From assembly GCA_947184155.2 (NCBI GenBank), contig CAMXCT020000118.1:239213-303212 (forward strand): DNA of 64,000 bases, given 5' to 3'. The DNA comes from Cladocopium goreaui. Its lineage: Eukaryota; Sar; Dinophyceae; Suessiales; Symbiodiniaceae. Positions 10,577-64,000 of the stretch are shown piece after piece. How positions within the stretch are numbered: position 1 is the first letter of the stretch; each line of letters starts with the position of its first letter. The position numbers and the translations under genes were made by a program. A model generated the notes under the pieces. It ran no database searches and was not told the origin of the DNA. It was given only the letters and a program-made list of their open reading frames with translations.

Positions 10577-12023
10577 TAAGGGACAATCTGGTGAAACCAA
10601 CTATTTTTCTGAGCAAACCAACTTTTTTTCCAAGAGGTCTCTGTGGTTTTCCTTCCTTGCGTGGATGTTGAGCCTGTTGGTTTACATGGGTCTATGTTGT
10701 GTCTCAGTTGGATCTTCCTTGCCAAGATGTTGTCCATACCTCGCCTCCATGTTGGGTCTATGTTGGATCTGCCACCATGACCCTGGGTCTTGGTTGGGTC
10801 TATATCTATGTTGGATCTGCTATGTTGGGCCTATATGTTGGTCTATGTTGGATCTGCTGAGATGTCCACAAATGTGTAGCAAAGCTAGCGTTGGGGCCAT
10901 TGGCTTTATGTTGGACGTATCCCATGTTGGACATATTTTCCTTTTTTTTGTCCGCCTAAAGGGCCTAAACCGGGCGAAGGCAAACTCCCGTATTTTTTGA
11001 ATTTGGTGATCTTGGTTACATTAACAATGTTGGCTTTTACTGCAAACCACCACAGGTAAAGTTTCGGTGCATTTGCTATCCGTCAAAATAACCAGGACCC
11101 TAAGGCGCTGCCAAAGTGCCCCTGACGCTGCAAGGGTGTCATGAACTATTAATTAACCATGATTCATTTCATCATGGGTAATAACCATGAACGATTAACC
11201 ATGATTCATCTCATCAAGCGTATATCTTCATTGAACCAGCAATCAGTATGCAATTCCCTGCATCATTCTCTAACATTTTCACAGTTTACCGTACTATCAA
11301 TCAACATCATCATGCATGACAGTACGGTTAACTGTGAAAATGTTAGAATATGATGCGGGGAATTGCATACTGATTGCTGATTCAATAAAGATATATGCTT
11401 TCTGAGATGAATCATGGTTAATAGTTCATGGTTATTACCCGTGATGAAATGAATCATGGTTAATAGTTCATGACACTCTTGTAGCGCCAGAGGCACTTTA
11501 TTTTGACGGATAGCAAATGCACTGAAACTTTGCCTGTGATGGTTGGCAGTAAAAACCAACATTGTTAAAGGAACCAAGATCACCAAATTCAAAAAAAACG
11601 GGAGTCCGCCTTCCCTGGGTTTTGGCCCTTTAGGCGGACTCCTGGAAAGCAAAAAACAGGAAAATATGTCCAACATGGGATACGTCCAACATAAAGCCAA
11701 TGGCCCCAACGCTAGCTTTGCTACACATTTGTGGACATCTCAGCAGATCCAACATAGACCAACATATAGGCCCAACATAGCAGATCCAACATAGACATAG
11801 ACCCAACCAAGACCCAGGGTCATGGTGGCAGATCCAACATAGACCGAGCATGGAGGCGAGGTATGGACAACATCTTGGCAAGGAAGATCCAACTGAGACA
11901 CAACATAGACCCATGTAAACCAACAGGCTCAACATCCACGCAAGGAAGGAGAAACACAGAAACCTCTTGGAAAAAAAGTTGGTTTGCTCAGAAAAATAGT
12001 TGGTTTCACCAGATTGTCCCTTA
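10577..12023. repeat. Large inverted repeat, ~0.7 kb arms, 25-base spacer
   Basis: Left arm 10577-11295 and right arm 11321-12023 are reverse complements over most of their length, with indels. The centre is CACAGTTTACCGTACT, a 25-base spacer, then AGTACGGTTAACTGTG. Outer ends are TAAGGGACAATCTGGTG and its complement. Inside, GTTGGATCTGC/GTTGGGTCTATGT words form a weak internal repeat. No transposase or other ORF is supported. The flanking (ACCTCGG)n arrays have the same orientation, so they are not part of the palindrome. Confidence 0.85.
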
Positions 12024-12603
12024 CCTCGGACCTCGGACCTCGGACCTCGAACCTCGGACCTCGAACCTCGGACCTCGGACCTCGGACCTCGAACCTCTGA
12101 CCTCGGACCTCGGACCTCGCACCTCGGACCTCGGACCTCGGACCTCGGACCTCGGACCTCGGACCTCGAACCTCGGACCTCGGACCTCGGACCTCGGACC
12201 TCGGACCTCGGACCTCGAACCTCGAACCTCGGACCTCGGACCTCGGACCTCGAACCTCGGACCTCGGACCTCGGACCTCGCACCTCGGACCTCGGACCTC
12301 GGACCTCGGACCTCGGACCTCGAACCTCGGACCTCGGACCTCGGACCTCGGACCTCGAACCTCGGAGCTCGGACCTCGGACCTCGCACCTCGGACCTCGG
12401 ACCTCGGACCTCGGACCTCGGACCTCGGACCTCGGACCTCGGACCTCGAACCTCGGACCTCGGACCTCGGACCTCGGACCTCGGACCTCGGACCTCGGAC
12501 CTCGGACCTCGAACCTCGGACCTCGGACCTCGGACCTCGGACCTCGAACCTCGGACCTCGGACCTCGGACCTCGAACCTCGGACCTCGACCTCGGACCTC
12601 GGG
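12024..12603. repeat. 7-bp satellite array (ACCTCGG)n, right array
   Basis: About 80 units of ACCTCGG/ACCTCGA in the same orientation as the left array. Long ORFs across it (for example 11630-12664 minus, 11863-12807 plus) are artefacts. Confidence 0.9.
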
Positions 12604-12699
12604 TCGGGCTCGTTGCCAAGTGCGTTCTGGAGAATTTTGACGCAGTGCCATTCTCAATCCTCACATTGTCACGATCTTCAGCGTGGGTCCAACGGCTTC

Positions 12700-15415
12700 A
12701 GCTGGCCGCCATCTTCATCATGGCTGAGCCTCAGAGAGCCCAGGCAGAGCACCTCAGGTTTTCTAGACATTGGCAAGCTCTCAAAGCCAAGCGGCATACG
12801 GCCGTGACGATGACACCAAGGGTAACCATCATTGACATCTGTCCAATCTCTGTCTTGTTCCATTGCTCCTGATTCGAAATCCTCAGTATGAGAGTTGCAC
12901 CATTGTGACAAATTGTGACGCATGGGGAAACAGAGCCGTCTTCAAATTGAGACCAATGATCGTTCTTCCTCTCTCAAAGAAAGCGTTGAAATTTCACCCT
13001 CCTCCAAGCATCACTGCAGAAGCCACCGCGATCGCAACGCAGTTGTCATCAGCAGCGCCAATTCCTGAAGTAAATAGATGCAAGGGGTGCAAAAGCTGCA
13101 GTAGACATTTCATAACATTTCACGTCCATGTTTGAGCAGGTTGAAAACCGAAAATGCATAACATGCAGTTTGTATCATTTTGTCTTGTCTTATTTCTCTT
13201 GCCTCTTACATCGGCTTTGGGGTGGGGAATACCGTGTTGCCCAGCTGACCGACCTGGTCTGATGACATGTTGCCGGAAATCACCTGGTGGATCCTTGTGA
13301 ATTGATGTGAGTGTTGGACCAGACTTTGTAATCTATAAAAACTTACTGCAGAATGGTAAGACTCCGGTGCAAAGGAATTAGAAACTATGTTTATCCAGTC
13401 TATCCTTGCATCATGGTACGAAGGGAAACTAACTTGCTCGCTCATGCCTTGTTAGTCAAATCTGGCAACTAGCTACCCCAAATCTCATGCATCACCGGAA
13501 CAAAATGTGTGGTGCCTTTGAAAACAAGGCATTTTTTCAGAAGACCAAAGCTGTCAAACCGTTGGAAAATCACATGTGAAAGAAGGTCTTGTGAAATTGC
13601 TAGAATAATTGCGAGAGAAAAAAAATAATTGCGAAAGGCTGTGTGTTGGTCGAAAAAGACATTCGTTGCTCAAGATTCCTTGGATTGCGGAAGGCCTCAG
13701 GCTTTGATTTATGGAATGAATTGATGGACTGGATTTCTCAAAATCCAAACACTAGAATGGTGGTACCCAAACCAGCACTATACAATACTATACATCCATT
13801 TCAAGGATCCATGCGAAGATCGTCACTGTCCAAAACTTTTTTTTTGGTGGTTAGCATCCCTTAATATCCCTTATTTTGGTGGTTGGCATCCAATATGACA
13901 TGAGGGAAAACAGGTCTTCAACCCATTGGGAATCTGAAGGCATCCAGTATGACATGAAGGACAAATACCGTCATTATATAGTTTGGACTTCTTCGTATCT
14001 AACCAAAACTCCAGCTTCGCACCCAACTATTGCGATTCGCAATGAAATGTGCTCATTCGTTATTGGACCGTACACAGCATGTAAATGTAAAAGCCGAAAA
14101 TGCCAAGAATTGACCTGCAAGAATGAGTAGAACTAAAATAACTCGATTAGAACTTCTTCTTCTTCTTCTTCTTCTTCTGTGAGCTCCGAAGTCTAGGTTA
14201 GACTGCGCTCGGCGTGAAACTGAATTCTATGCAAACAGACCTGCCATGACCTGCCGCAACTGGCCAAACAACCATCAAAATAGTAGACAAAAAACCGCAA
14301 ACAAGGGATTGGCTGGTCTGCATGCCACTGGCTAGCTACGGGATGTTACGGGTATTCTCATGCTCAGGAACTTGCAACTTCTGCAGCCTTTTGGGCTGCA
14401 TCCAGATCTGAAATGAACGCCATCAGAGTTTCAGGCACGTCTCGACTTGGTCGGCCATGGGACCAGTGACGTTCAACATTGTTCAGAAATGAAACAGCAA
14501 GTCCACAGCTCATGTTGGAAACATATTCGTCTTGTCCTGATGGTTGAAGCGATGAATGTCGTGCACTTTGGGCAAAGGAGCACATGTCAGCTTGGAACCT
14601 GGGCATCCACACAACCAAGAGGTGAGCGGCACTATGCTGACTGGATGCACTAAAACCTGCTGCACACTGGGGTGCCTAAGAAGCCACTGCACCGGCCATG
14701 TTGTCCATATGCTTGGCAGATCAGGAGTGTTTGGCACACTTGCGTGCTCCAAGACAAATCGAACCCCTGCAAACAGGCAAGCTAGCGCCAACAACAGCGC
14801 GGCAAACAGCAAAGCGTTGGTCATATCGACCTGTCGCAGCTCAGCAGTCGTCAGACCATCAATGCACCACGGCGCATCAGCATGACGCGCCACTCTTGAG
14901 CCAGGAGAATTGCCTATGTCTGTGGAAATCCTTGCGCTGCTTGCAATCCATGTCTCACCTGGAGGAGTCAGCAAGACCCCAGCCAAGGACCCCAAAAGCA
15001 CGTGTTCCCAAATTTGCTGAACTTCTTGTCATCCAGAATGCATTGAATGCCAACCCAGCAGGATTTTTGACATCGAAGCAACTGTAAATTGGACATTTGA
15101 GGGTTTGAGTCACGAAGGGCTTCGTGTGCCTTTCCCCCAACTATAAATCTTACATCGAAAGCGATTGGGATTCTCAAAGGTGATGGATACAATGTATACA
15201 AAGTCTGTTGTGATTAAAAGTGTGTACTGCCTCTCAGCTTTCCCCACTCTTTGAGCAAAGCTTCGCTCCAATTCCAAAGTTGTTGGCGATATGGGTGGAA
15301 GATGCAACACAAACACATGGACACACCAGTGATGGTCAGCGACGTCATCTGCGCTGGGAAGGTAGTACTTGGATAAAATGCAGCCGCCGTGGCAAGAAGC
15401 ACTTTCCTGGCAAAG
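12700..15415 (-). CDS. Multi-exon membrane protein gene, copy 1 (partial, possibly decaying)
   Basis: Minus-strand exon-like blocks have homologues in the same order in copy 2 (16.5-17.3 kb). The first is 15262-15415, encoding a hydrophobic segment starting FARKVLLATAAAFYPS and ending HPYRQQLWNWSEA. The others are near 13000-13085 and 12795-12885 (EQWNKTEIGQMSM then a hydrophobic stretch). A further block at 14768-14963 encodes LRQVDMTNALLFAALLLALA, a clear membrane helix. Blocks are conserved between copies while flanking sequence is not, and the first differs by a whole codon, which argues for coding constraint. The 13.0 kb block needs a frameshift. The pattern 'charged-K-hydrophobic-PY-x-N-W-E' recalls large multi-pass protist membrane proteins; no function is claimed. 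Start and end are not located. Confidence 0.4.
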
Positions 15416-48587: not shown

Positions 48588-51500
48588 GCGTGTGGCAGGC
48601 GTGGCGCAACCTCAAATCCACCTTCGTTTTGCGTGGCAGGCGTGGCGCAATCTCCACATCTACCTTCGTCATGCGTGGCAGGCGTGGCACTTAGCGCGCT
48701 TGGTCGCCGCTGGTCGCCTGTGACGCCGCGGCACTTTGTGTGGCAGGCGTGGCACTTGGTGACATCCGCCTTCGTTTTGCGTGGCAGGCAAGGCACAAGG
48801 ATACATCCACCTTCGTTTCACCTTCGTTTTGCGTGGCAGGCGTGGCGCGGCGTCACCGGCGACCAACGGCGACCAAGCGCGCCATGCAGTGCCATAAGTG
48901 CCACGCCTGCCACGCATTACGAAGGTGGAGACAAGGTAGATGTCTCCTCGTGGCACTTCGCGTGGCAGGCGTGGCACTTGGAGACATCTACCTTCGTTTC
49001 ACGTGGCAGGCGTGGCACAATCTCTCATCTACCTTCGTTTTGCGTGGCAGGCGGGGCACTTATGGCACTGCGTGGCGCGCTTGGTCGCCGCTGGTCGCCT
49101 GTGACGCCGCGGCACTTTGCGTGGCAGGCGTGGCACTTGGCGACATCCACCTTCGTTTTGCGTGCCAGGCGTGGCACAAGGATACATCCACCTTCGTTTC
49201 ACCTTCGTTTTGCGTGGCAGGCGTGGCACAAGGAGACATCTACCTTGTCTCGACCTTGGTTTTGCGTGGCAGGCGTGGCACTTTTTGCACTGCGTGGCGC
49301 GCTTGGTCGCCGTTGGTCGCCTGTGACGCCGCGGCACTTTGCGTGGCAGGCGTGGCACTTGGTTTCACGTGGCATGCGTGGCACAATCTCCCATCTACCT
49401 TCGTAATGCGTGGCAGGCGTGGCACTTGGTGACATCCACCTTCGTTTTGCGTGGCAGGCGTGGCACTTACGGCACTGCGTGGCGCGCTTGGTCGCCGTTG
49501 GTCGCGCGGCACTTTGCGTGGCAGGCGTGGCAGGCGTGGCACTTATGGCACTGCGTGGCGCGCTTGGTCGCCGCTGGTCGCCTGTGACGCCGCGGCACTT
49601 TGCGTGGCAGGCGTGGCACTTGGTGACATCCACCTTCGTTTTGCGTGCCATGCAGGCGTGGCAGAAGGATACATCCACCTTCGTTTCACCTTCGTTTTGC
49701 GTGGCAGGCGTGGCACAAGGAGACATCTACCTTGTCTCCACCTTGGTTTTGCGTGGCAGGCGCGGCACTTATGGCACTGCGTGGCGCGCTTGGTCCCCGC
49801 TGGTCGCCTGTGACGCCGCGGCACTTTGCGTGGCAGGCGTGGCACTTGGTGACATCCACCTTCGTTTTGCGTGGCAGGCGTGGCACTTATGGCACTGCGT
49901 GGCGCGTTTGGTCGCCGTTGGTCGCCTGTGACGCCGCGGCACTTTGCGTGGCAGGCGTGGCACTTGGTTTCACGTGGCAGGCGTGGCACAATCTCACATC
50001 TACCTTCGTCATGCGTGGCAGGCGGGGCACTTATGGCACTGCGTGGCGCGCTTGGTCGCCGCTGGTCGCCTGTGACGCCGCGACACTTTGCGTGGCAGGC
50101 GTGGCGCTTGGTGACATCCACCTTCGTTTTGCATGGCAGGCGTGGCACAAGGATACATCCATCTTCGTACTTACGGCACTGCGTGGCGGACTTGGTCGCC
50201 GTTGGTCGCCGGTGACGCAGCGGCACTTTGCGTGGCAGGCGTGGCACTTGGTGACATCCACCTTTGCTTTGCGTGGCATGCGTGGCACTTATGGCACTGC
50301 GTGGCGCGCTTGGTGGCACAAGGAGACATCTACCTTTTCTCCACCTTGGTTTTGCGTGGCAGGCGTGGCACTTATGGCACTGCGTGGCACGTATGGCACT
50401 GCGTGGCACGCTTGGTCGCCGTTGGTCGCCTGTGACGCCGCGGCACTTTGCGTGGCAGGCGTGGCACTTGGTTTCACGTGGCAAGCGTGGCACACTCTCA
50501 CATCTACCTTCGTGATGCGTGGCAGGCGTGGCACTTATGGCACTGCGTGGCACGCTTGGTCGCCGTTGGTCGCCTGTGACGCCGCGGCACTTTGCGTGGC
50601 AGGCGTGGCACTTGGTGACATCCACCTTCGTTTTGCGTGGCAAGCGTGTCACAAGGAGACATCCACCTTGTCTCCACCTCGGTTCTGCGTGGCAAGCGTG
50701 GCACAAGGAGACATCTACCTTGTCTCCACCTTGGTTTTGCGTGGCAGGCGTAGAACTTATGGCACTGCGTGGCGCGCTTGGTCGCCGTTGGTCGCCGTTG
50801 GTCGCCTGTGACGCCGCGGCACTTTGCGTGGCAGGCGTGGCACTTGGTTTCACGTGGCAGGCGTGGCACAATCTCACATCTACCTTCGTAATGCGTGGCA
50901 GGCGTGGCACTTATGGCACTGCGTGGCGCGCTTGGTCGCCTGTGGTCGCCTGTGACGCCGCGGCACTTTGCGTGGCACGCGTGGCACTTGGTGACATCCA
51001 CCTTCGTTTTGCGTGGCAGGCGTGGCACTTATGGCACTGCGTGGCGCGCTTGGTGGCACAAGGTGATATCTACCTTGTCTCCACCTTGGTTTTGCGTGGC
51101 AGGCGTGGCACTTATCGCACTGCGTGGCGCGCTTGGTCGCCGTTGGTCGCCTGTGACGCCGCGGCACTTTGCGTGGCAGGCGTGGCACTTGGTGACATCC
51201 ACCTTCGTTTTGAGTGGCAGGCGTGGCACAAGGAGACATCCACCCTGTCTCCACCTTGGTTCTGCGTGGCAGGCATGGCACTTATGGCACGCTTGGTCGC
51301 CGTTGGTCGCCGGCGCCGGTGACGCGGCACTTTGCGCGGCAGGCGTGGCACTTGGAGACATCTACCTTCGTTTCACGTGGCAGGCGTGGCACAATCTCAC
51401 ATCTACCTTCGTTCTGCGTGGCAGGCGTGGCACTTTTGGCACTGCGTAGCGCGCTTGGTCGCCGCTGCTCGCCTGTGACGCCGCGGCACTTTGCGTGGCA

Positions 51501-51610
51501 GGCGTGGCGCTTGGTGACATCCACCTTCGTTTTGCATGGCAGGCGTGGCACAAGGATACATCCACCTTCGTTTCACGTGGCACTGACATCCACATTCGTT
51601 TTGCGTGGCT
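48588..51610. repeat. 3-kb GC-rich higher-order array (GCGTGGCAGGCGTGGCAC)
   Basis: A basic word GCGTGGCAGGCGTGGCAC alternates with a few partner blocks (TTGGTGACATCCACCTTCGT, TTATGGCACTGCGTGGCGCG, CTTGGTCGCCGTTGGTCGCC, TGTGACGCCGCGGCAC). At 48880-48955 the words run in the opposite orientation. Every frame is largely open because the blocks lack stops. I do not accept the many ORFs (up to 455 codons) as genes. Confidence 0.9.
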
Positions 51611-54600
51611 GCGTCTTCGCCATGTTTTATGCCCCGACACGTTTATTGCTTCGGCATGTTTTGACATGTTCGATTTTCTGGCATGTTTACCTACTTTCTT
51701 CTCCCGGCTTTCATTTCTATTCACGTTTGCAGCCTTGCTGACATGTTTCCTTGGGCCTGTTCTGTCTTCCGGCATGGTTACCTGGTGTCTTTACGTGCCA
51801 AGTTGCTGTATGACCCAATTCATCTTTGTGTGCCTGTGGTGGAAGACGGCAAGGACTCCCCTTGGAATAAGCTGGCTTTCGCGGAAATCTGCGATGCTAT
51901 TCAGCATGCAAGCTTTCTTATCTGCTGTTTTGGCTGCCGGCATTGTTGATTCAATGTGGAAAGACATGCCAAGCAGATGACATTGGAACGCGCAGTGATC
52001 CGGAATGGCTTGGCGCAACGTGCAAAGAGCCCAATCTCAGTCACACTGCGTGCGGTTAACATATTTGGGAAAAGACTGCACAGGTAGCGTCATAAGATGA
52101 AGAAACTGTGACTGTGTCGCAAGAAGATGCTGCCTGATGTCAGCATTCCGAGGCTTCGCATTGTTGATTGATGTTTGTTCGCAGACGAGGGAATGTACCA
52201 CAAACTGTGATATGTTGCAGACGAAAGTTGATTGATGCCTGTCTGACATGTGATTTGAACTGTTTGTGGCTGGTCTGTTTGAAATGAAATATTGTAAACT
52301 TCTGTCCGTTTGCTGCAGGCGGAGGTACCTAGTGTGGCACGGCGGCCCAGTGAAGTTTCTGGATCGCAAGCTTTGGAAGATTCACGCTTAAATGTTAATG
52401 TTTGGCTTTAGTTAGTCCGTTGTTGACAAGCTGAATTCTGCAGCGATGGCAACGTCGCGAGACCGAGAAGAACGTGGAAGATTGCAGGAGCCGAGCAACA
52501 GGCGGAATCGCCTTCCTGATCTCATCAGTGTGACAATGAGCGACGGCTCACTTGTGGAGATCAACTTGACTGGAGCCAATCGAGAAGAAAGGGAAGATGT
52601 GGCATGGTTCTTGGACGTACACACTACGGTAGCCATGGCACCACCTGCTGCGCACCGTGAATCCAGAGACCGGTCGCCAAGACTGGCGTTTTCCTCAGGG
52701 CCTACCCTTCGTGTAACCTGAACCAGATGTACAAGACCGTTTCAGGCAACTACCACCACCGCCCATCGCAAGGCATGGCGAGTCAGCTTCTGATGAAAGA
52801 ATGCCGCTTGAGCGAGCTGGAGCCGCGAACTTCGCGCAACTGCGACCCCAACGATGTGGAGGCGCACCCATGTCGAAGGCATCAGCGGTGGCCACAAGCG
52901 CTGGTCATTGCCTATATGTCCACTGCTCCAGCGGAATCTCCGTCTGAACAGCGTCGCGAGAAGACGTGGTGACAGCAGGCCACGGGAAAAGAAATGTTTC
53001 TGTAATTATGATACATATCACATATCTTTCTGTACATATCATGAAATGGTTTGATGCAATGTGCGAAGAACCGTTTGATGCTGTAGCAAAAGTGGTTGTG
53101 TGTGTTTCTGAATATGATGAAACAAATGATTTGACACAATGTGTGAAGAAACATTTCTGGTCCGGAAAGAAACCTTTCTTCATCCGCAATGAGTGCGGAG
53201 CAGCTTCGGTTTGTTTGTCGGAAAACAATCAGCTGCTTGCCAATTGTCACATTACAGGTGCACAGTTACCAACGAGAATGTCTTGCCTTTGCATCTGCGT
53301 CTGTGTGCCGTCCTTTCTTTCCGTTCGACATTCCCCGTGGTGTGTTGCTTCCATTGCGAAATGAGAAGCGGGGAACCTAGGACATTAATTCGAGAGCATC
53401 TATACGGTTGATCAATAAGATATCTAGTGTGGTTAAACTATCAAGAATAGATTGGTTCTTTGGGTTCATATTGTGACAAGATAGCATGCGTGCTAAGTTG
53501 AGAACCCTACACACAGCAATTCATTGCATAATATATCCAATATGGATCAATATGGTGGAACTAGTAAGATTTCATTGGTTGCCGCTGTCATGTAGTAACA
53601 AGATAGCACGAATGAAGCCTCTGTGTGTTTGCAATTGGCTCAGGTGCCCATCCAGTGGGCTTCTTGGACGGAGGACAGGCGCGTGTCGCACGGCCCGACA
53701 ATGAGTCAACGAGTCTATGTCCTCGGGAGCAAGAGCTTTGACCCAATGTGGGAAGAAGCGTATGCAGATGCATCGCGAACCGACACCTATTTGAATGTCC
53801 GTGACGCCTGTGTGTTTCTGAAATTTGTGGTTGGTTGACATATTTGGAAAAAACTGCACAGTTAGCGTCATAACCATGGTGCTTGCCACTGTGACTGTGT
53901 CGTGACTTGACAGGCATGCGCTCTGTACTTGTCTTCCATAGTTGCTTTGACAACCAGCTACATACGTGTTCTGCACTTTTTGCGGCCAGGTACTTTTCCG
54001 CTATGTCGTCATCGTCGGATTCGTGGCTGGAGGAGAGGCGCGGCTGTCACGTAGCACATCTCGTTGCACCACATGGAGCGCAGAAGATCATGGAACACCT
54101 CATTCAGCCCATTCCAGGTCCACAGTGCTGCCGCACGCAGAGCAGATGACATTGCAGCGCTGGCAAAAAAATGTCTGCACTGTCGCGCACTCACGTCACT
54201 TTCACACACACCATCTTTCACACGCAACTTTGTCACACACATACACATACATACATACATACATACGTACGTACGTACGTACATACATACCTACGTACAT
54301 ACGTACATGCATACTATCTTTTCACATACTTTCTTGCTTTGTCACACACAGTCTTTCACCACCTCCTTTGTCTTTCCTTCCTTCCCCGTCCCCGCTACAA
54401 CCTTTGAAGCTCAGTATTGGAAGAAGTTGACTTGTGGGGTTATCCGGTCCTTTAATTCGAACATGAAATCCGCCCACACCGCTTTGGCGGTGAAGGCGTG
54501 CTTATTGGGGGGCAAAACAGCAACACTACATGCTCAATGACATTTGTTAATATAGCAGTCGCTATATCAGCTTTAGCTGGGGGGGGCCAAAAACGGTTTC

Positions 54601-55252: not shown

Positions 55253-55500
55253 TTTGAAATTCCGCAGCTTGGAGAGCCTCCAATGGAGGAAAAAGTGAAA
55301 ATTCCATAGCTTGGGAAGCTGTCACGGCGGGGAAAAGTGAAAATTCCCTAGCTTGGGAAGCCCCCACGGGGGGGGAAAGTGAAAATTCCCTAGCTTGGGG
55401 AGCCCCCACGGGGGGGAAAAGTGAAAATTCCCTAGCTTGAGGAGCCCCCACAAGGGGGAAAAGTGAAAATTCCCTAGCTTGGGGAGCCCCCACGGGGGGG
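55253..55500. repeat. 42-bp tandem array
   Basis: Five to six units of AAAGTGAAAATTCCCTAGCT followed by TGGGGAGCCCCCACGGGGGG (spacing 42, at 55295, 55337, 55379, 55421, 55463). The right-hand unit is cut exactly where the LTR starts, so the retrotransposon inserted into, or at the edge of, this array. Confidence 0.9.
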
Positions 55501-55704
55501 TGTGATTTATTTTGTTTTACGTGTCTACACAATGCATTCATGCATGTTGACATGTACACTTAATTCATATCTTTCATGCGCACTCCGCATGGCTCAAGAC
55601 TAGCAGCAATTCCGCAGCATAGAAAAGTGTTCGCCGCTCATCGCTTGTCACAGGTGTTTAGATTAGTTGTCCAGGGCTCCCCTAATAGAGGGATAGCTAC
55701 CTCA
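55501..55704 (+). repeat. 5' LTR (TGTGATTT ... CTACCTCA)
   Basis: The start is fixed by identity with 63916 onward; the base before differs between the two sites. The end is inferred from the terminal CA three bases before the primer-binding site, giving 204 bases; it cannot be checked because the 3' copy is truncated by the window. Confidence 0.75.
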
Positions 55705-55707
55705 AAG

Positions 55708-55720
55708 TGGTAGCGGAGCC
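55708..55720 (+). other. Primer-binding site
   Basis: TGGTAGCGGAGCC is complementary to an initiator-tRNA-Met-like 3' end (..GCUACCA). The Copia element at 39.4-46.0 kb uses TGGTAGCG too. Confidence 0.7.
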
Positions 55721-55827
55721 TGTGCCTTCGCCAAGTCTAGATCCGTGTGCCGAACTGCCGTTCTCTGCATACATTCCGTATATCGGACTTGCAGAGGCAA
55801 CCTGTAGGTCAAGTTAGAGTAGCTGCC

Positions 55828-58800
55828 ATGGTCTTAATCCACAACATGGATTCAGATGAAGAACAACTCCAGATTGTCTCTTATGAAGAGCCTGAAGCAT
55901 ATGCCGCCACCAGTCATTCCGAAAACCGGATGGGCATCAAAATGACACCGAAGGTTCCACCCCAATTTGATGGCCAATCAAGCTGGTTTGAATATGAAGA
56001 TTTAATTGATGACTGGTTAGGGATCACAACATTGGATGCAGATAAACATGGACCATCATTAAAGAATGCCCTCATTGGTTCCGCTTCTTTTTATAAGTCG
56101 ATGCTCGATAATGCCCTACTCCGAGATCCGGATCGTGGCCTCGCTCATTTCAAGGACACATTGAGACCATACTTCGTGAAGGGAGTAAATCATGTGTTCC
56201 TTTGGCGATTCCTCCAGATGTTTCGCACATATCGAGGCCAGAGCGAATTCGTGCACTGGATAGGGCGATTTGAGATCGCGCAGAAGCGTTTGTTGGCTTC
56301 TTGGTCCGATCTGCTGGACATATCCGATCTTCCCGAAGCAGGCACTCAGGCATTTACAGCAGCACTCACAGATGAGCAAAGACTGCAATATAATGCAATA
56401 GTAACAGATGAAGATAAGCTAGCTTTTCAACAAGAGTTGAGAGAGCAGACCATAACCAACAGAAGGACCAGACATGCACAGCAGTTTCCATTGTCAGACA
56501 ATTTGATGTCACTGATTTTTCTAGTGCAAGCAGACCTCAACGAGCAACAGCGCGAGCGCTTTGTCTCGTCCATGAACATCCGTCAGATTGCAATGCCTCA
56601 ATACACCTATCTCCAAGTGAAACAGCTGTTCTTAGAACTTTTTGCCGTTTCCCACACAGGTGTTGCAGACCCAAATATCACGCACCGCAAGCGGTCCAAC
56701 TTCTACGTCATCGACGAGGGCGAGACCGAAGAAGGTGAGTACGGATTTTGGGTTTTTGATGACACAACCCGCTGTAGTCGCTCCAAACGCTTCGAAGCCG
56801 AAGAAACCCAAGCATGATCCTGTGCCTGATGACTTTGATGATGACGAGCCTGATCCAGATGCCGCACCATCCGGACACAATGGACCGCCGATACTTCCGC
56901 TAGACGGAGATGAACCTTTTAGTCCATCGCCAATGCCAGAGAATGATCCACAACCAGACACTCAAGATCAGCAAGAACCACAAGAAGAAGAAGAAGAACC
57001 TGAAGAGGACACAGATGAAACAATTCCTTATGGTTCAACAGATACAGATGAGACTCTTGACTATAATGATCTTGTTATTGATGATTCAAAATGGTGTTTC
57101 CTGTCACAGGAACAAAAATTGTGCAGTAATACTGCGTCATTCTCTGTGCCTAGACTGATTGATGGTTCACCAGTAGCTCTGAGCAGTGTCGAATCTTCTA
57201 ATTCTATTGGTATGTCTTATTCCGTTGTCTCGGAGAGACAACGCACCAGATGCCGTAAGACTAGATCTGATATCATTGAAGAATATCACGGCATTAATGA
57301 AGAAGACAAGGCTTTTATGACATTGTATTCCATGACAGACAAATTTTCTTATCTTGTTGGCAAGAAGAGAAAGGAAGCCACTCAACAAGAGAAGAGACAA
57401 CTTGCCAAACAGTTTTTAGATGCAAAGAAGGCTGAATGCCAATCATGGATTGATAATGAAGTTTTTGATCTTGTTGACATGAGAAAAACCAGAGTTCGGA
57501 ATTTCGTTGCCGGAAGATGGGTTCTTACCGTAAAGAAAGACAAAGACGGTAACTTCCAGAAATGTAAGGCAAGATGGGTCCTCAAGGGTTTCCAAGACAA
57601 ACAGAAGAACACCCAGCAGACTGATAGTCCAGCAGCGTCACGTGCAGGTTTCCGATGTGCAACACAGCTGGCTGCGAACTATCACTGGGACTTGTACCAT
57701 ATGGACCTAAAGACCGCTTTCCTCCAAGGTGAAGCCTATGATGAAACTAGAGACATCATTTGTCAGATTCCACCTGAGTATGGTTACCCACCATACATTG
57801 GTGCTAGGCTTAAGAAACCTGGTTACGGTCTTAATGATGCGCCACGCCGTTGGTGGCAGATCATTGATAAAGCCTTACTTGACTGCGGACTTGTTCCCAC
57901 ACGCGCAGACAGATGTACCTATGTTCTGTATGACAGTACTTCTAAGACAAGGACCTACCAACCACCTCGTAGTGTAAACACTGAACAGGTAACCATCTCT
58001 GAGGCAATTGACCATCTTATGGATCCGGTAGCCCGAAACAATGCTCAGGGACGCCGACCGCATGGTTTTATTTGTCTTCATGTCGACGACCTGTTCATGG
58101 CAGGCGAGCAGGTGTTTGAGTCCAAGGTCTTGTCCAGTCTGCGTAAGAACTTTGCTGTCGGTTCAGAAGACAAAAATGACATTATGTTTGTAGGACAACG
58201 CATCAAATGGAAGACTCATGACAAGTATGGACCATACATTTCTGTTGACCAGAAACTTGCTGTCGATGCAGTTGAAGAAGTCAAGATTGATAAGTCCTTG
58301 AAGGATAACATCCAATGCAATCCACAACTTCACACCGCTTATCGATCAGTTCTTGGACAGCTCAACTGGTTACAGAGTAGGACACAGGTTCACATATGTT
58401 ACAAGTTTTCGCGTTGTGCCTCAGCCGCTGCTAGTCCGACCATAGGTGATGTCAGGGAAATCAACAAGGTTGTTCGAACCCTCAAGAGTCAATATGTGGA
58501 CGGTAGATTCTGGCCTCTGAAGGGTTCTCAGCGTATCCTTGGCATGCCTGATGCATCCTACCGTAACAACAGTGATAAGTCTAGTCAGCGTGCTCATGTC
58601 ATTTTCCTAGCCGAAGATCGCAAATTGCCTTCCAAGGGAGCATACCGCAATTCCGGTTACGACACGCAAACACACCGTATAGACGGTTCCAACTCAGCAA
58701 CCCGTGGATCGATTATTGACTATGAGAGTCATAAGATAACCACTACAACACAATCCACAACTGTTGCCGAATTGAATGCCTTAATGAAATGTTTTGGAAC

Positions 58801-59242
58801 CTGTTTGTTTTTGCGTGCACTTTGGGCCGACATCAGTGGTGAGATCGTCCCCATACACATCCGAACCGACGCGAACAATTTAGTCACCACCGCTCAGACA
58901 ACACACCTACCTGAACAGAAGGAGACCCATCATTTAATACAAATGTTAAGACATGAGAGTAACACCGGACACTTGGATGACCTGAGTCACATTGCAAGTG
59001 AATATTGTCTGGCTGATCCACTTACTAAGTCAACAGCGAAACCAGACCAGTTAGTGTCATCTATAACCACTGGCAAACTTGAGAATGTTGATACGCACCC
59101 GCCATTCCGGTCGTTACTCAAACATAAAGCATTTTTAACTACATGGGTCATTGAAACGTTGTCAGAGCCGCACAATGTGTTAACATTTTTCAATGAAGAC
59201 ATTTCTGATTATGTTTTTGCCATGCTATACTTCGAGGAGTAA
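55828..59242 (+). CDS. gag-pol: Gag-Pol: Gag followed by reverse transcriptase and RNase H
   Basis: Gag starts at ATG 55828 (GCCATGG) and would run to 56817 unspliced. It has the pattern PPQFDGQSSWFEYEDLIDDW, LRPYFVKGVNHVFLWRF and WIGRF, with no zinc knuckle. Pol is in the +1 frame to 59242. Removing 56735-56777 (GTGAGT...TGTAG, 43 nt) fuses both frames exactly, giving 1123 residues. Pol begins with an acidic Pro/Glu linker, then RVT_2 motifs (GRWVLTVKKD, ARWVLKGFQDKQ, YHMDLKTAFLQGE, LKKPGYGLNDAPRRWW, active site HVDDLF at 58079-58096) and RNase H acidic residues (GMPDASY, VAELNAL, RTDANNLV, LADPLTK). No protease (DTG/DSG) or integrase (HHCC, DDE) region is visible, unusual for an element with intact LTRs. 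Confidence 0.9.
56735..56777 (+). other. Candidate 43-nt intron or frameshift region at the gag/pol junction
   Basis: GAAG|GTGAGTACGG ... CGCTGTAG|TCGCTCC has consensus-like donor and acceptor, and its length (43) is exactly what brings gag into the pol frame. The alternative is +1 ribosomal frameshifting within the overlap. Unspliced RNA would give Gag alone, a way to set the Gag:Pol ratio. Confidence 0.5.
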
Positions 59243-59446
59243 ATTTTCGTCTCAAGAAAATTTGTGTCTGCAATCTCTCGGCTCACAGGGTTCTTATTGT
59301 TTTTCTTTTTCGCGACGCCCGGACTCACGTCCCTTGGCACTGTTCTTGAACCCGGAAGCCAATTCTTGGAGACACCTCGAAGATCTTGTTTGAAGATCGA
59401 TTTCTCAAAGGTCGCATCAAAAGGGTGACCAACTCATTTCTCTTTT
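59243..59446 (+). other. Spacer between pol and ORF3
   Basis: 204 bases without an ORF. Contains AAGAAAATTTGTGTCTG (59254-59270), repeated exactly at 63897-63913 just before the 3' LTR. It may hold an internal promoter, a splice acceptor, a translation re-initiation region or a second polypurine tract. Confidence 0.5.
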
Positions 59447-62400
59447 ATGCCTCCAAAGTTCTCAAAGCATGGCCGCACAGATCATTCCGCCTCTGCGGAT
59501 TACACACCACGTGGCTTCCGCAGTCCTCGTGGCAACCGACCACATCACACACCGCGTGGCGGTAATCCAGACAGAAGGCAAACGCGCGACACCCGGACTT
59601 ACGAATCTCGTAGCAGGGTCATAGACGATGCATTCGGCGCGCCTCTTGACTCTGTGCAGTCGAACAGCCGCATTTTTGCTGAGTGTATTTCTCAGGTCCT
59701 CAGAAAGCAATCCGGTATCAAGACCAAAGAGGACCATGATTCCGCATTAGCGGATAGCCATTTTGAGACCATGTCACGTCACTTGTCTTATATCTTTCGG
59801 CATACGAAGTTAATGCACCGTGACGGATCATTGTCCTTGCATGAGCTTATTAGCCATCCTGGCACAGCCAGAAAAATTCGCACTTTGTACCGTGAAGGAC
59901 AGAAATTTTTGCAAGATTTTGACCCTAATGAGCTTTCAATGCAGGTCAGACGTAGAGAAAACACTGTTACCTTCCTTATGCCCTTGGCCCATGTAATCTG
60001 CGACTCTAATAAAGCCAGGGCCATGATCGGCTATGTAACCACCGAAGATTTCCAACCAGGCATTGTTCCGATACCGGACACGTGGTTTAAGCCGGCAGAA
60101 TTCGATGATGAGGTCACCAGGGAAGGCCAAGCCGACATGCTTGAAGGTCTCGACATTGCGAATATTTTTATCCGCTTTGAGAGTGGTCATTCCACTGAGG
60201 TCGAAATTCAGCATTGCCCATTTAAGCCTGATGTTTTTCCGCTAAGGTACCTCATCCATGGAGCGAACGAGAAAAATCTTGAATCCATCCGAAGACTAGG
60301 TTTGCTCCCAGGAGGCACCCGTGGTGGAAGGAACCATGTGCATTTCACACTTGATTCTGCACTCAGTACGATCAGGGACGTATTACGTCCCGAATCAGAC
60401 TGCATCCTAATTGCCAGACCTGGTGCCGTTACCGGCCTTGGTCCAGTGATCACTCACAACCGGTATGTCCTCACCGATCAGACCGTGCCGTTCAATCGCT
60501 TTTGCGGTGTTTGGTCCTTTGTCGATCGATCCTGGCTTGTTGCACCGGAACCGGGCGAGCTAAGGAGAATGAATGATTATACATCCAATGTTGACCTTGC
60601 CATGCATGTCTGCCACCACCAACTTTACTGGGAGAAGAAGAATGAAAATGAACAAGATGGTTTCACATGGTCACGTTCCGAATATGTGGAGTATGTGGCA
60701 GAAGAAATCGAGAAACTCCCAGTTGTTAAGAAGTTTTTGGAAAGTTTTCGTAGTACCGATTCCGGTCCGGCCAGGCCTCTGCGAACAGATGCAACTCCGA
60801 ACGACCAAGAGCTTGGCCCACCTGAGACCGAGGCAGACAAGAGAGTAAAAACACTCAAGGCAGAAATTTCCGAGCGATTTAAGAAACATCTTGCCAAAGA
60901 GCGAAACAAGGAGCAGTCTTCCGCCTCGGAGAGTGAAGCTCCCAAAGGACCTGTTAAGGCCAAGCCTATGCCTAGGAAACCGAAGGATGCCGCCGCTGCG
61001 GCTAGCTCAGATCCAGCATCCGGCCAAGTTGATCCTGACGCTGAAGTTGATCTTCAAGCAGCATCTCCCTGGGGCGGCCGCCGACAGGTTGTCAAGACAA
61101 AAAGACGCCGTGAAATGAACGCTCAGGCAAAGGATCTGTTCCGCGATGCGGACGCCGCCCAAAAGTTTTTCACTAAGTTTAAAAAGGACACAGAAGAAAT
61201 TCAATGGTTTCCTCGCCCTGCGGGTCCTCAATGCTGTAAGAATTTTGAAGACTGTGGATGTTCAGAGGCAATGTTCTGGTGCCACCCTTGTGGCTTTGCC
61301 TACTGCTTGGAATGCCGCACCTGCGGCTTATCTTGCAAACATAATATTGTTAATTTTTCTTCTGAGTTGTCCTCCGACTTTATTCCAGACAGCATCGGCT
61401 CATCCAATTCGCCTTTCGACATCGAAGACCTGGTTGATGCCGTTCTTGCCGAATCTTCGTATTTCGGAGCCACACGTCGAGAGCATGCTCAAAATCGCCA
61501 GGAAAAATTCTCGGAACTAATCACGCATCTGCGTGAGGGCCGCTCAATTGGAAACACTTACCTTCAATCTTTTGCTCGTCATGGAATTGAAGATTTTGAT
61601 TATACAGAATTCATTTATGAAATGCCATTTGGATGTCGAATTCCGACTCTCCAGGAGCACTTTGTTGATGCCCAGGACCAGACGCCTCTTCCGATCTGGC
61701 GACCTGAGGCTTTCTTCAAGTACCCTGATGGCGGTGACCTTAAGTCAGAGGAGATTCTCCGTTTATTGGAGCTCTTCAGATCGTGCCTTCTCGGTAAGAG
61801 AGCAATCCTTGGTGTTACCAAGCGCACTAAGGAGAACATCCACGAGTTTCAGAAGGACACGTATCAGCTTGGTATTTTGACTTTGAACCTTGGTCACATC
61901 AACCGTCTTCCGTATATCGGAGGTTGCGCCAAATTTCCAAAATGGGTACGAACTGATATCAACCACCGTGCATTGCCACATTTAGTGTTCCGTAATGCGG
62001 CCCATATTGTGTGCTTGTGCGAGGCGTCCGACGAGTACGGAGGAATTGCCGTCCATCGAGAGCTGGCCGAAGAGTATGGGATGATTGGCATGGTAGTGCA
62101 CCCGCACATCCAGTCACAATCCGTTGCAATTTTTCTCCGTGGCTCACATGATACAGGCTCCTTTATTGAACTTTTGTGTCCCCACCAAATTGAAACTTCC
62201 ACCAAAGAAGCACCCTTTTGGATTTTGCATGGCGCCATTTTTCGCCTTTGCCATGGAATGAACACGTCAGGAGAATTTGTTGATCCTTCTACTGGCGCTC
62301 GTGTTCCGAAACCGGACATCGAGAAAAATTCCGAATCTACGGTTTGGCAGCATGATCGCCCACTTGCATCCTCACTCGATTTTCTTGATCACTCGATCTG

Positions 62401-62593
62401 CGAGATCGACGGAGATGATGACCTTGCCGTCTCCGGCGTGGAAGCTTGTGAAGTGAATCTTGGAGCTGACACTCATGACGTCCGACGTCTCATGTTAGCT
62501 GAATGCCGCATTGCGGTTTTTCATATCTCCTCATATGCATGGAGTTATGCTTATAAAGAAACGTGCCAGAAATGGCTCCAATTTGTCGTATAA
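59447..62593 (+). CDS. ORF3: Tpt1/KptA-like RNA 2'-phosphotransferase with Cys-rich and EEP-like regions, 1048 aa
   Basis: ATG at 59447. Residues 1-55 are Arg/His/Gly-rich. About 108-365 match the Tpt1/KptA fold: LSYIFRH (Arg118-His119), FIRFESGHS (Arg243, His248), LIHGANEKNLESIRRLGLLP, RNHVHF (Arg295) and THNRYVLTDQTVPF. The four catalytic positions expected of Tpt1 (Arg, His, Arg, Arg) all appear present; about 60 extra residues sit between the N-lobe and C-lobe. Tpt1 removes an internal RNA 2'-phosphate using NAD+; some members act on other RNA or ADP-ribose substrates. Residues 596-632 hold ten Cys and two His in a cluster (CGCSEAMFWCHPCGFAYC), probably zinc-binding. Residues ~808-1030 (LTLNLGHINR, HIVCLCEASDEYGG, IAVFHISS) weakly resemble an endonuclease/exonuclease/phosphatase domain. 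It lies in the pol frame, 204 bases downstream. Confidence 0.85.
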   Translation: MPPKFSKHGRTDHSASADYTPRGFRSPRGNRPHHTPRGGNPDRRQTRDTRTYESRSRVIDDAFGAPLDSVQSNSRIFAECISQVLRKQSGIKTKEDHDSALADSHFETMSRHLSYIFRHTKLMHRDGSLSLHELISHPGTARKIRTLYREGQKFLQDFDPNELSMQVRRRENTVTFLMPLAHVICDSNKARAMIGYVTTEDFQPGIVPIPDTWFKPAEFDDEVTREGQADMLEGLDIANIFIRFESGHSTEVEIQHCPFKPDVFPLRYLIHGANEKNLESIRRLGLLPGGTRGGRNHVHFTLDSALSTIRDVLRPESDCILIARPGAVTGLGPVITHNRYVLTDQTVPFNRFCGVWSFVDRSWLVAPEPGELRRMNDYTSNVDLAMHVCHHQLYWEKKNENEQDGFTWSRSEYVEYVAEEIEKLPVVKKFLESFRSTDSGPARPLRTDATPNDQELGPPETEADKRVKTLKAEISERFKKHLAKERNKEQSSASESEAPKGPVKAKPMPRKPKDAAAAASSDPASGQVDPDAEVDLQAASPWGGRRQVVKTKRRREMNAQAKDLFRDADAAQKFFTKFKKDTEEIQWFPRPAGPQCCKNFEDCGCSEAMFWCHPCGFAYCLECRTCGLSCKHNIVNFSSELSSDFIPDSIGSSNSPFDIEDLVDAVLAESSYFGATRREHAQNRQEKFSELITHLREGRSIGNTYLQSFARHGIEDFDYTEFIYEMPFGCRIPTLQEHFVDAQDQTPLPIWRPEAFFKYPDGGDLKSEEILRLLELFRSCLLGKRAILGVTKRTKENIHEFQKDTYQLGILTLNLGHINRLPYIGGCAKFPKWVRTDINHRALPHLVFRNAAHIVCLCEASDEYGGIAVHRELAEEYGMIGMVVHPHIQSQSVAIFLRGSHDTGSFIELLCPHQIETSTKEAPFWILHGAIFRLCHGMNTSGEFVDPSTGARVPKPDIEKNSESTVWQHDRPLASSLDFLDHSICEIDGDDDLAVSGVEACEVNLGADTHDVRRLMLAECRIAVFHISSYAWSYAYKETCQKWLQFVV

Positions 62594-63722
62594 CGTAGTT
62601 TCTTCGACCACTGCAGCCAACTACATCCGAAGCATGCGTGGAGATGATGCTGATTGTGATTCAATGCTTTTAATTTCTCTTTGTTACGGTAAGCAGATCG
62701 CCGTCACGGAAGCACGTGCAAAAGAAGAATCAGCCTCTGCAGATGGATTCGCAGGATCTGCCTTCTCCGACGAAGTTATGCTGAACGATGTTGAACAGCT
62801 CAAACATTTGATGGCATACGACCTTGGTTTGGCAGAAAAGGACTGTGCATGGCACTCACCTCTCCTTGCCTACGCCCAGTTGAAGGCACTGAAAAATATG
62901 CGCATCCGATCCAAGGAATCTGAAGATAAAAGACGTGAAAAATGGATGCAGCGAACACAAGGATATCTCGAAAAACGAGAAGAAAGGAGAGACAGTGTTC
63001 CGCCGCTGCGGACTGACTCACACCGAAATGTTGGACGCACTCGAAGTCGATCGGTCAGCAGGACCAGAACACATCGACCCAGAGCTGAAACACCAGCACC
63101 GCCTCCGGCACCTGTGCGAGGTCCAGCAGCAAAGGCCAGACCAGTTGAACCTGTGAAATATAAAGCTGCACCGAGATCCTTGAAAGAATCACCAGCTCCG
63201 ACGTCATCAGGATCTTCCTCTAGTGCTAGGCCGCCTGTAAAGGCTCCTCCAGTTCCGGTTCCCGGACGAACACTAGGTTCACAGCAGCCAAGAACGCCTC
63301 CTGATCCACCAGGACCGCCGAAGACTCCACCGCCGTGGAGAGAGAGATCACAGCAGGCTGAGCAGAGGCAAACGACCAGAAAAAGGCCAATCAACGTACC
63401 TGAGCCTCCTGCGCCTCCATCCCGAATGTCGGGTCCGCAATGGCTTGACCAAGGAACAGCTTCCAGCTCTTCCGGACACCGTAATTACGGTTACAGTTTT
63501 GATCAGCCGTCGCACTATAGAGTGAATCCCAACACCACTCAAGCAGAATACGTCCCAGGGTACCAAGTACCCAGACAGCGTTGGGTCCAGAAATACGACG
63601 GATCGTGGCTTGACATGATTCCGCAGACACCGGATCAGTCTATTTTCTTTCATCAGACAGGTGAACACCGTAGACAAAACGAGTTGAGTTTTTACGGTTA
63701 CTATTTCACTATGGGCTTGTAG
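62535..63722 (+). CDS. ORF4: basic, Pro/Arg-rich protein, ~395 aa
   Basis: Overlaps the end of ORF3 in the +1 frame; the first ATG is at 62535 but the frame is open from 62511, so ORF3-ORF4 could be one polyprotein made by +1 frameshift or splicing. Residues up to ~120 look folded and helical (CDSMLLISLCYGKQIAVTEA, MAYDLGLAEKDCAWHSPLLA). Then comes a strongly basic stretch (SKESEDKRREKWMQRTQ, RTRSRSVSRTRTHRP), a long Pro/Ser-rich linker, and an aromatic C-terminus (YGYSFDQPSHYRVNP, FYGYYFTMGL). No zinc knuckle. The basic, Pro-rich character would suit nucleic-acid binding, perhaps replacing the missing Gag knuckle; this is speculation. Confidence 0.7.
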   Translation: MHGVMLIKKRARNGSNLSYNVVSSTTAANYIRSMRGDDADCDSMLLISLCYGKQIAVTEARAKEESASADGFAGSAFSDEVMLNDVEQLKHLMAYDLGLAEKDCAWHSPLLAYAQLKALKNMRIRSKESEDKRREKWMQRTQGYLEKREERRDSVPPLRTDSHRNVGRTRSRSVSRTRTHRPRAETPAPPPAPVRGPAAKARPVEPVKYKAAPRSLKESPAPTSSGSSSSARPPVKAPPVPVPGRTLGSQQPRTPPDPPGPPKTPPPWRERSQQAEQRQTTRKRPINVPEPPAPPSRMSGPQWLDQGTASSSSGHRNYGYSFDQPSHYRVNPNTTQAEYVPGYQVPRQRWVQKYDGSWLDMIPQTPDQSIFFHQTGEHRRQNELSFYGYYFTMGL

Positions 63723-63915
63723 CCCCAGAAAAATTGCAATGTTCCGCATTTGCGGTCGCTTACCACCAGCAGAGAACACCGCTTTCCAACAGCGGAGAGT
63801 AGCTTTCTGTACAGTTTTGTTTTTGTTTTCGGACCGTCTCACAGCAGATCACAGGCTGAGCGCTACCTGTGAAACAGACTTGCATGTTCCGACACGAAGA
63901 AAATTTGTGTCTGTT
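63723..63915 (+). other. 3' untranslated region of the retrotransposon
   Basis: No ORF. Ends with CGAAGAAAATTTGTGTCTGTT directly before the LTR; the purine run CGAAGAAAA could serve as polypurine tract though it is 12 bases from the LTR edge. Confidence 0.5.
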
Positions 63916-64000
63916 TGTGATTTATTTTGTTTTACGTGTCTACACAATGCATTCATGCATGTTGACATGTACACTTAATTCATATCTTTCATGCGCACTC
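63916..64000 (+). repeat. 3' LTR, first 85 bases
   Basis: Identical by inspection to 55501-55585; cut by the window end. Confidence 0.9.

Follow-up and report, generated by a model that had tools for sequence, protein, structure and literature searches.

Why would a long terminal repeat (LTR) retrotransposon of a dinoflagellate carry an RNA 2'-phosphotransferase? The question is raised by a stretch of 64,000 nucleotides of Cladocopium goreaui (contig CAMXCT020000118.1, here C118, positions 239,213 to 303,212), referred to below as the window, which forms the final 64 kb of its contig. A first-pass annotation, made from the letters of the window, had placed at its right end an LTR element with a Tpt1/KptA domain in an open reading frame (ORF) between pol and the 3' LTR. 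Following this up in the 1.166-Gb genome assembly, we find that the window holds a damaged copy of a dinoflagellate copia-type LTR element that measures ~14.2 kb and has a Tpt1-encoding frame, ORF3. Other genomic copies, a Pfam score above cut-off, profile comparison and the selection acting on the frame all support the reading of an LTR retrotransposon with a Tpt1/KptA domain encoded between pol and the 3' LTR. The parts of the window copy on which the question turns are the following (aa, amino acids):

59447..62593, + strand: ORF3 as left in the window copy, 1048 aa
62511..63722, + strand: rest of ORF3, shifted to another frame by a 173-bp deletion near 62587
59768..60409, + strand: Tpt1/KptA domain, ORF3 residues 108-321, with the tetrad R118, H119, R191 and R295

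The 1048-residue ORF described earlier is present between pol and the 3' LTR, and its length is a deletion product: the 173-bp deletion near 62587, which is common to the window copy and L018, split ORF3 into ORFs of 1048 and 403 aa. Among the 21 copies of the window family, the ORF3 frame reaches at least 1480 aa in 12 and is shorter in 9.

Profile searches place the domain within the Tpt1 family, in line with the earlier assignment of residues 100-370. The window ORF3 matches PTS_2-RNA (Tpt1/KptA, PF01885) with E 7.6e-07 and 29.8 bits, against a Pfam cut-off of 26, and the copy L012 reaches 34.0 bits with the domain alone and 28.5 bits with the whole ORF3. The L012 ORF3 also matches the NCBIfam RNA 2'-phosphotransferase model (E 1.2e-05) and PHROG 5470 (E 2.8e-05, residues 240-305). 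Moreover, comparison by hhalign of a window-family profile with three stand-alone Tpt1 from the same assembly gave 95.6%, with E 1.3e-08 over 57 columns. It should be noted that the domain is divergent, and three results count against the assignment: the NCBIfam equivalog cut-off of 239 bits is not reached by L012 ORF3 (25.3 bits), a PDB search with a single sequence gave only E 0.0089, and one with a family-only profile gave 0.15.

The Tpt1 catalytic tetrad, given in passages of PMC6333775 as Cth Arg18-His19-Arg68-Arg121, was assigned by alignment to 6e3a as R118, H119, R191 and R295 of ORF3. The first-pass annotation had listed Arg118, His119, Arg243 and Arg295; three of these stand, and the third member is R191, R243 being the conserved Arg of an IRAxxGHS motif outside the tetrad. 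All four residues are invariant in 21/21 window-family copies. The domain resembles Tpt1/KptA (PF01885) in this Arg-His-Arg-Arg tetrad, in a Lys two before its third residue and in the GHS, HG and RNHVHF motifs. It differs from stand-alone enzymes in that it sits in a retroelement ORF and holds insertions, and it shares 20-30% identity with seven aligned Tpt1 that are stand-alone or belong to other groups.

Over the whole of ORF3, the ratio of nonsynonymous to synonymous substitution rates (dN/dS) is 0.135; within the Tpt1 region it is 0.128, and 0.121 when L027/L028 are set against the other copies. Purifying selection keeps the ORF3 frame and the Tpt1 active-site residues, and this selection on the active site suggests that the elements need RNA cleaning or repair to copy themselves. 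Would a non-catalytic role serve as well? ORF3 might be kept for RNA binding, for particle structure or as an env-like ORF, with the Tpt1 fold as a binding module; the frame is large, its other regions are at least as conserved (dN/dS 0.080 for residues 661-790 and 0.101 for residues 791-1250), and the tetrad His is lost in a distinct Tpt1 group represented by L032 and L037. We nevertheless hold such a role to be improbable, given that the tetrad is invariant throughout the window family and complete in L033, L038 and L040, which belong to other groups.

The frame of the element around ORF3 was read from these features:

55501..55704, + strand: 5' LTR, 204 bp, TGTGATTT...CTACCTCA, delimited by comparison with other copies
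55747..56817, + strand: N-terminal part of gag, the frame ending past the deletion junction at ~56762; placed by position, without profile match
56642..59242, + strand: pol remnant with linker, RVT_2 (residues 272-434) and RNase H region (by eye)
63916..64000, + strand: 3' LTR, first 85 bp, found as a direct repeat, the remainder cut by the contig end

The matching LTR starts reported earlier were confirmed: the 85 nt at 55501 recur, identical and in direct orientation, at 63916. This repeat is an LTR end and not an unrelated dispersed sequence: other copies hold the full LTR of ~204 bp with ends TGTG...CTCA, and the window 3' LTR stops after 85 bp because contig C118 ends there. In three copies compared, the LTR pairs are identical at 203/204, 203/206 and 197/199 positions (the last with two gaps in addition), and these insertions are therefore young.

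The genome search scored 44 copies of ORF3 out of 925 candidates, and 10-kb regions were fetched round 20 of them, mostly top-ranked. Downstream of ORF3, 3' LTR sequence was found in 20/20 fetched copies (in L020, its first 104 bases only), and a 5' LTR was found in all three upstream regions fetched, which belong to three of these 20 copies. When the 44 ORF3 places were compared with 40 scored LTR places (of 338 candidates), listed LTRs flanked both sides in 8/44, one side in 9/44 and neither side in 27/44. Wherever both LTRs were seen, ORF3 lies inside the pair. The spacing from 5' LTR to ORF3 is 8.5-9.6 kb, the exceptions being the window copy (3.7 kb) and two others (17-18 kb).

The copy at L010/L029 measures 14,216 bases by its coordinates (C2335:300299-314514), and relative to it the window copy lacks ~5.4 kb at 56762. 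This deletion removed the protease and integrase stretches together with the remaining part of gag, and it split the frames: the gag part and the reverse transcriptase, described earlier as an intact gag-RT-RNase H frame, lie in different frames. The RVT_2 reverse transcriptase itself is well matched by Pfam in the window pol (E 4.6e-20) and in L018 (E 4.7e-19). By eye, full-length copies (L029/L031) contain the DSG motif of a protease and the DDE motif of an integrase; the rve profile match (E 0.003, 18.2 bits) is under its cut-off of 32.6. An origin of the two window deletions in a spliced copy was considered and set aside: by eye the junctions are unlike GT-AG introns, and plain deletions are therefore more likely.

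In its RVT_2 domain, its TG..CA LTR ends, the integrase-like stretch upstream of the reverse transcriptase in full-length copies and a 5-bp target duplication (one clear case, L010), the window family is like Ty1/copia. It is unlike Ty1/copia in that an extra frame of ~1482 aa, the Tpt1-bearing ORF3, separates pol from the 3' LTR, and in that one copy extends over the 14,216 bp given above, yet has LTRs of only 204 bp.

Is Tpt1 confined to this family? The Tpt1-carrying families comprise the window family and at least one related group, a wider distribution than the first-pass annotation described. When the genome was searched with the Pfam profile, 150 Tpt1 places were scored out of 1496 candidates, and every one of the 150 exceeded the cut-off; their frames run to 4039 aa and, by reading of the list, six hold one internal stop. 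The window family itself lies outside these 150. The remaining groups were judged on one or two fetched members each. In L038, Tpt1 is a separate ORF downstream of pol, whose end shares 61% identity with the window pol over 150 aa (E 6e-61). A search for this type scored 120 copies among 818 candidates, and L040 also belongs to the group. The bulk group, represented by L032, has a copia RNase H-like stretch (by eye) in one open frame with Tpt1, which suggests that the enzyme can travel with pol, and an L032-type RNase-H-like stretch lies 2512-2912 bases upstream on the same strand in 90/150 Tpt1 places. A group scoring 92-101 bits comprises 22 places, and its member L033 has an RT-like frame (by eye). 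The loci L034, L035 and L036 score 172-180 bits; L034 looks like a host gene, and L036, on a 7.38-Mb contig, is probably bacterial.

L036 (G000:C1) and L035 (C5523) are bacterial-type KptA genes; with one of them on the 7.38-Mb contig, the assembly therefore probably holds bacterial contigs. A pattern search for relatives in viral_contigs returned 69 and 3 matches, none of which was confirmed.

What, then, might the enzyme do for the element? The residues that bind 2'-phosphate are kept, which suggests 2'-phosphate removal. Our preferred reading, tentative and a little short of an even call, is that the enzyme clears 2'-phosphates off element or primer RNA and so lets reverse transcription proceed. 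As predicted from sequence, the ORF3 Tpt1 would be an NAD+-dependent RNA 2'-phosphotransferase acting in the element ribonucleoprotein or particle beside the reverse transcriptase. Element RNA, or the primer, would be cut and then re-ligated by a host repair ligase of the fungal/plant type, a reaction after which 2'-phosphates would remain; Tpt1 would clear these leftovers, and reverse transcription, thereby unblocked, would yield full-length cDNA. A point against this proposal is its dependence on a general premise, namely that 2'-phosphates stall reverse transcriptase.

Some members of the Tpt1 family transfer ADP-ribose to 5'-phosphate ends. By the same chemistry, the ORF3 domain could act as an ADP-ribosyltransferase on 5'-phosphate ends of RNA or DNA, and the caps so formed would shield the RNA or cDNA of the element from decay or ligation. 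We think this quite unlikely: the domain retains the tetrad residues for binding the 2'- and 3'-phosphates of the junction, which argues for a reaction on the 2'-phosphate.

The first-pass annotation had suggested, as possible functions, end repair and the countering of a host defence. In the latter case, the enzyme would reverse an RNA-damage or RNA-ligation defence of the host aimed at transposon RNA, and the many Tpt1 copies in repeated frames fit such a common pressure. Ligation by RTCB leaves no 2'-phosphate. A defence of this general kind has been described in animals, where transposons are excised from mRNA by cleavage and ligation, but it runs on RTCB, and the same source notes that RNA ligation can aid LINE-1 (passages of PMC13247085). 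We therefore give counter-defence a low probability.

The removal of 2'-phosphates could concern the primer as well as the template, and for this reason the primer site deserves a closer look:

55708..55720, + strand: putative primer-binding site TGGTAGCGGAGCC, three bases past the LTR

An initiator-tRNA-like primer site had been noted earlier. A TGG-initial site does follow the LTR; a matching transfer RNA (tRNA) gene was not found with two strict patterns for a tRNA gene 3' end matching the site (first pattern: 6 matches, none tRNA-like by eye, control 15; second pattern: 0 matches, control 7), both of which demanded exact pairing at the acceptor, wobble excluded, in an assembly from which tRNA genes may be absent. 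An unusual primer is therefore possible, and with it a function in which the enzyme heals the primer and not the template, processing a cleaved or 2'-phosphorylated tRNA into one with a usable 3'-OH for minus-strand priming. This we regard as unlikely: the site starts with TGG three bases past the LTR, like ordinary tRNA 3'-end priming, and the strictness of the patterns or tRNA genes missing from the assembly may account for the null result.

The C-terminal half of ORF3 raises the question of a partner for the 2'-phosphotransferase. Two stretches were marked there:

61232..61366, + strand: Cys/His-rich, zinc-finger-like stretch, seen by eye, without profile match
61868..62593, + strand: start of a region with an EEP-nuclease-like motif order (LNLGH, CLCEA, VFHIS)

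The GDGN motif of the EEP-like region falls inside the 173 bp deleted from the window copy. The order of these motifs, which we take to be that of EEP nucleases and which no profile confirms, is common to L040 (hhalign 28.5% over 54 columns). Searches for an EEP nuclease in this half gave 0 Pfam matches at E 10 (L012, L040) and 0 PDB matches, and the assignment, being without profile match, is kept as a lead only.

In its widest form, the argument would be that several dinoflagellate retroelement lineages recruited Tpt1, as a separate ORF or in the pol frame, and that with an EEP-like partner it forms a module healing 3' ends and junctions, so that host-cut and re-ligated RNA can be copied; this would reveal an RNA-cleavage defence of the host or a repair-dependent step of retrotransposition. 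We consider this doubtful. Several results that count against the proposed 2'-phosphate removal bear on it too. The RNase H of L032, seen by eye, gave 0 Pfam and 0 PDB matches and no BLAST match to the window pol, and against the corresponding stretch of L038 a single match of 44 aa (E 7e-04). The RT-like frame of L033 likewise gave 0 Pfam and 0 PDB matches. When the lists were compared by eye, no RVT_2 was seen close upstream of the 150 listed Tpt1 places, the RVT_2 list being the 150 top-scored of 7362 candidates, with lower-scoring reverse transcriptases outside this comparison. That the L032 and L033 groups are retroelements thus rests mostly on motifs found by eye, which lowers the probability of this widest reading. 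Moreover, Gly replaces the tetrad His in L032 and L037; passages of PMC6333775 call all four tetrad residues essential, and report that a His-to-Ala change in the Runella enzyme had only a threefold effect on step 2. In a 16-row tree of the Tpt1 domain, long branches lead to the retroelement groups and the forks are open, so that the tree yields no count of Tpt1 captures.

Dinoflagellate retroelements with a host-type enzyme have a precedent in the DNMT-carrying retrotransposons of Symbiodinium. The elements that carry DNA methyltransferases in parts of PMC5890265 are of the LINE and DIRS types, unlike the window family, and the Copia elements there are without a DNMT domain. Term searches found neither phosphotransferase nor Tpt1 in the main text of PMC5890265, and no 'phosphotransferase' in the dinoflagellate genomics review PMC11453091. 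A literature search, judged by title and abstract start and with most subscription journals beyond its reach, returned no report of Tpt1 in retroelements; in a passage of PMC4053983, PF01885 is a table row. According to passages of PMC6333775, Tpt1 acts in tRNA splicing, yet it is also widespread among bacteria, where its substrate has no obvious source. Its presence in many retrotransposon copies under selection would tie RNA repair to retrotransposition and offer a natural setting for finding a Tpt1 substrate, and RNA repair would join the enzyme classes carried by mobile elements.

Further features concern the LTRs, the 3' end and the insertion site:

55257..55500, no strand: 42-bp tandem repeat with C/G runs
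55585..55598, + strand: CCGCATGGCTCAAG within the LTR, at LTR position 85-90 in 20/20 fetched 3' LTRs
59254..59270, + strand: 17-mer AAGAAAATTTGTGTCTG downstream of the pol stop; the motif also occurs beside the 3' LTR
63897..63913, + strand: 17-mer AAGAAAATTTGTGTCTG adjoining the 3' LTR, at the expected place of the polypurine tract

The last nine bases of CCGCATGGCTCAAG are what we take to be the end of the dinoflagellate spliced leader; the motif may be a relic of trans-splicing or the start of R. The leader pattern has 172 exact copies in the genome and its reversed control 0, which marks the host as a dinoflagellate. The 17-mer stands directly before the 3' LTR in 21/21 copies and directly after the pol stop in 20/21, an arrangement that would fit either ORF3 having joined the element beyond a former 3' end or the first copy being an internal polypurine-tract region.

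The 3' LTR end could be placed in 18 of the 20 fetched copies (L014 and L020 being the other two), and in 18/18 of these a C/G run of at least five lies within 12 bases of the 3' end, compared with 0.66% of positions in a control taken from this single window (1-55500). L015 and L025 have the same 3' flank, probably as a duplicated or haplotype-split region, so that 17 distinct 3' flanks are represented. The window insertion itself sits directly after a run of seven G. Insertion in C/G runs suggests targeted integration. L010 shows a clear target duplication (CCCCT, 5 bp); L011 is uninformative in this respect, and in L012 the duplication is off by one base. By eye, several copies (3' flanks of L013, L026 and L020) are inserted in a 42-bp repeat of the window type.

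A cytosine-methyltransferase-like motif order was seen by eye between integrase and reverse transcriptase, at residues ~58-235 of the L018 ORF and also in L032. With 0 Pfam matches at E 10 and a best PDB value of 0.59, which amounts to chance, we do not claim a methyltransferase.

Elsewhere in the window, an inverted repeat (10577-12023 and 11897-12800) has 374-nt arms that are 98% complementary and adjoins an array of 14-bp units, and positions 48611-51665 hold a complex array of direct and inverted repeats of 88-300 nt.

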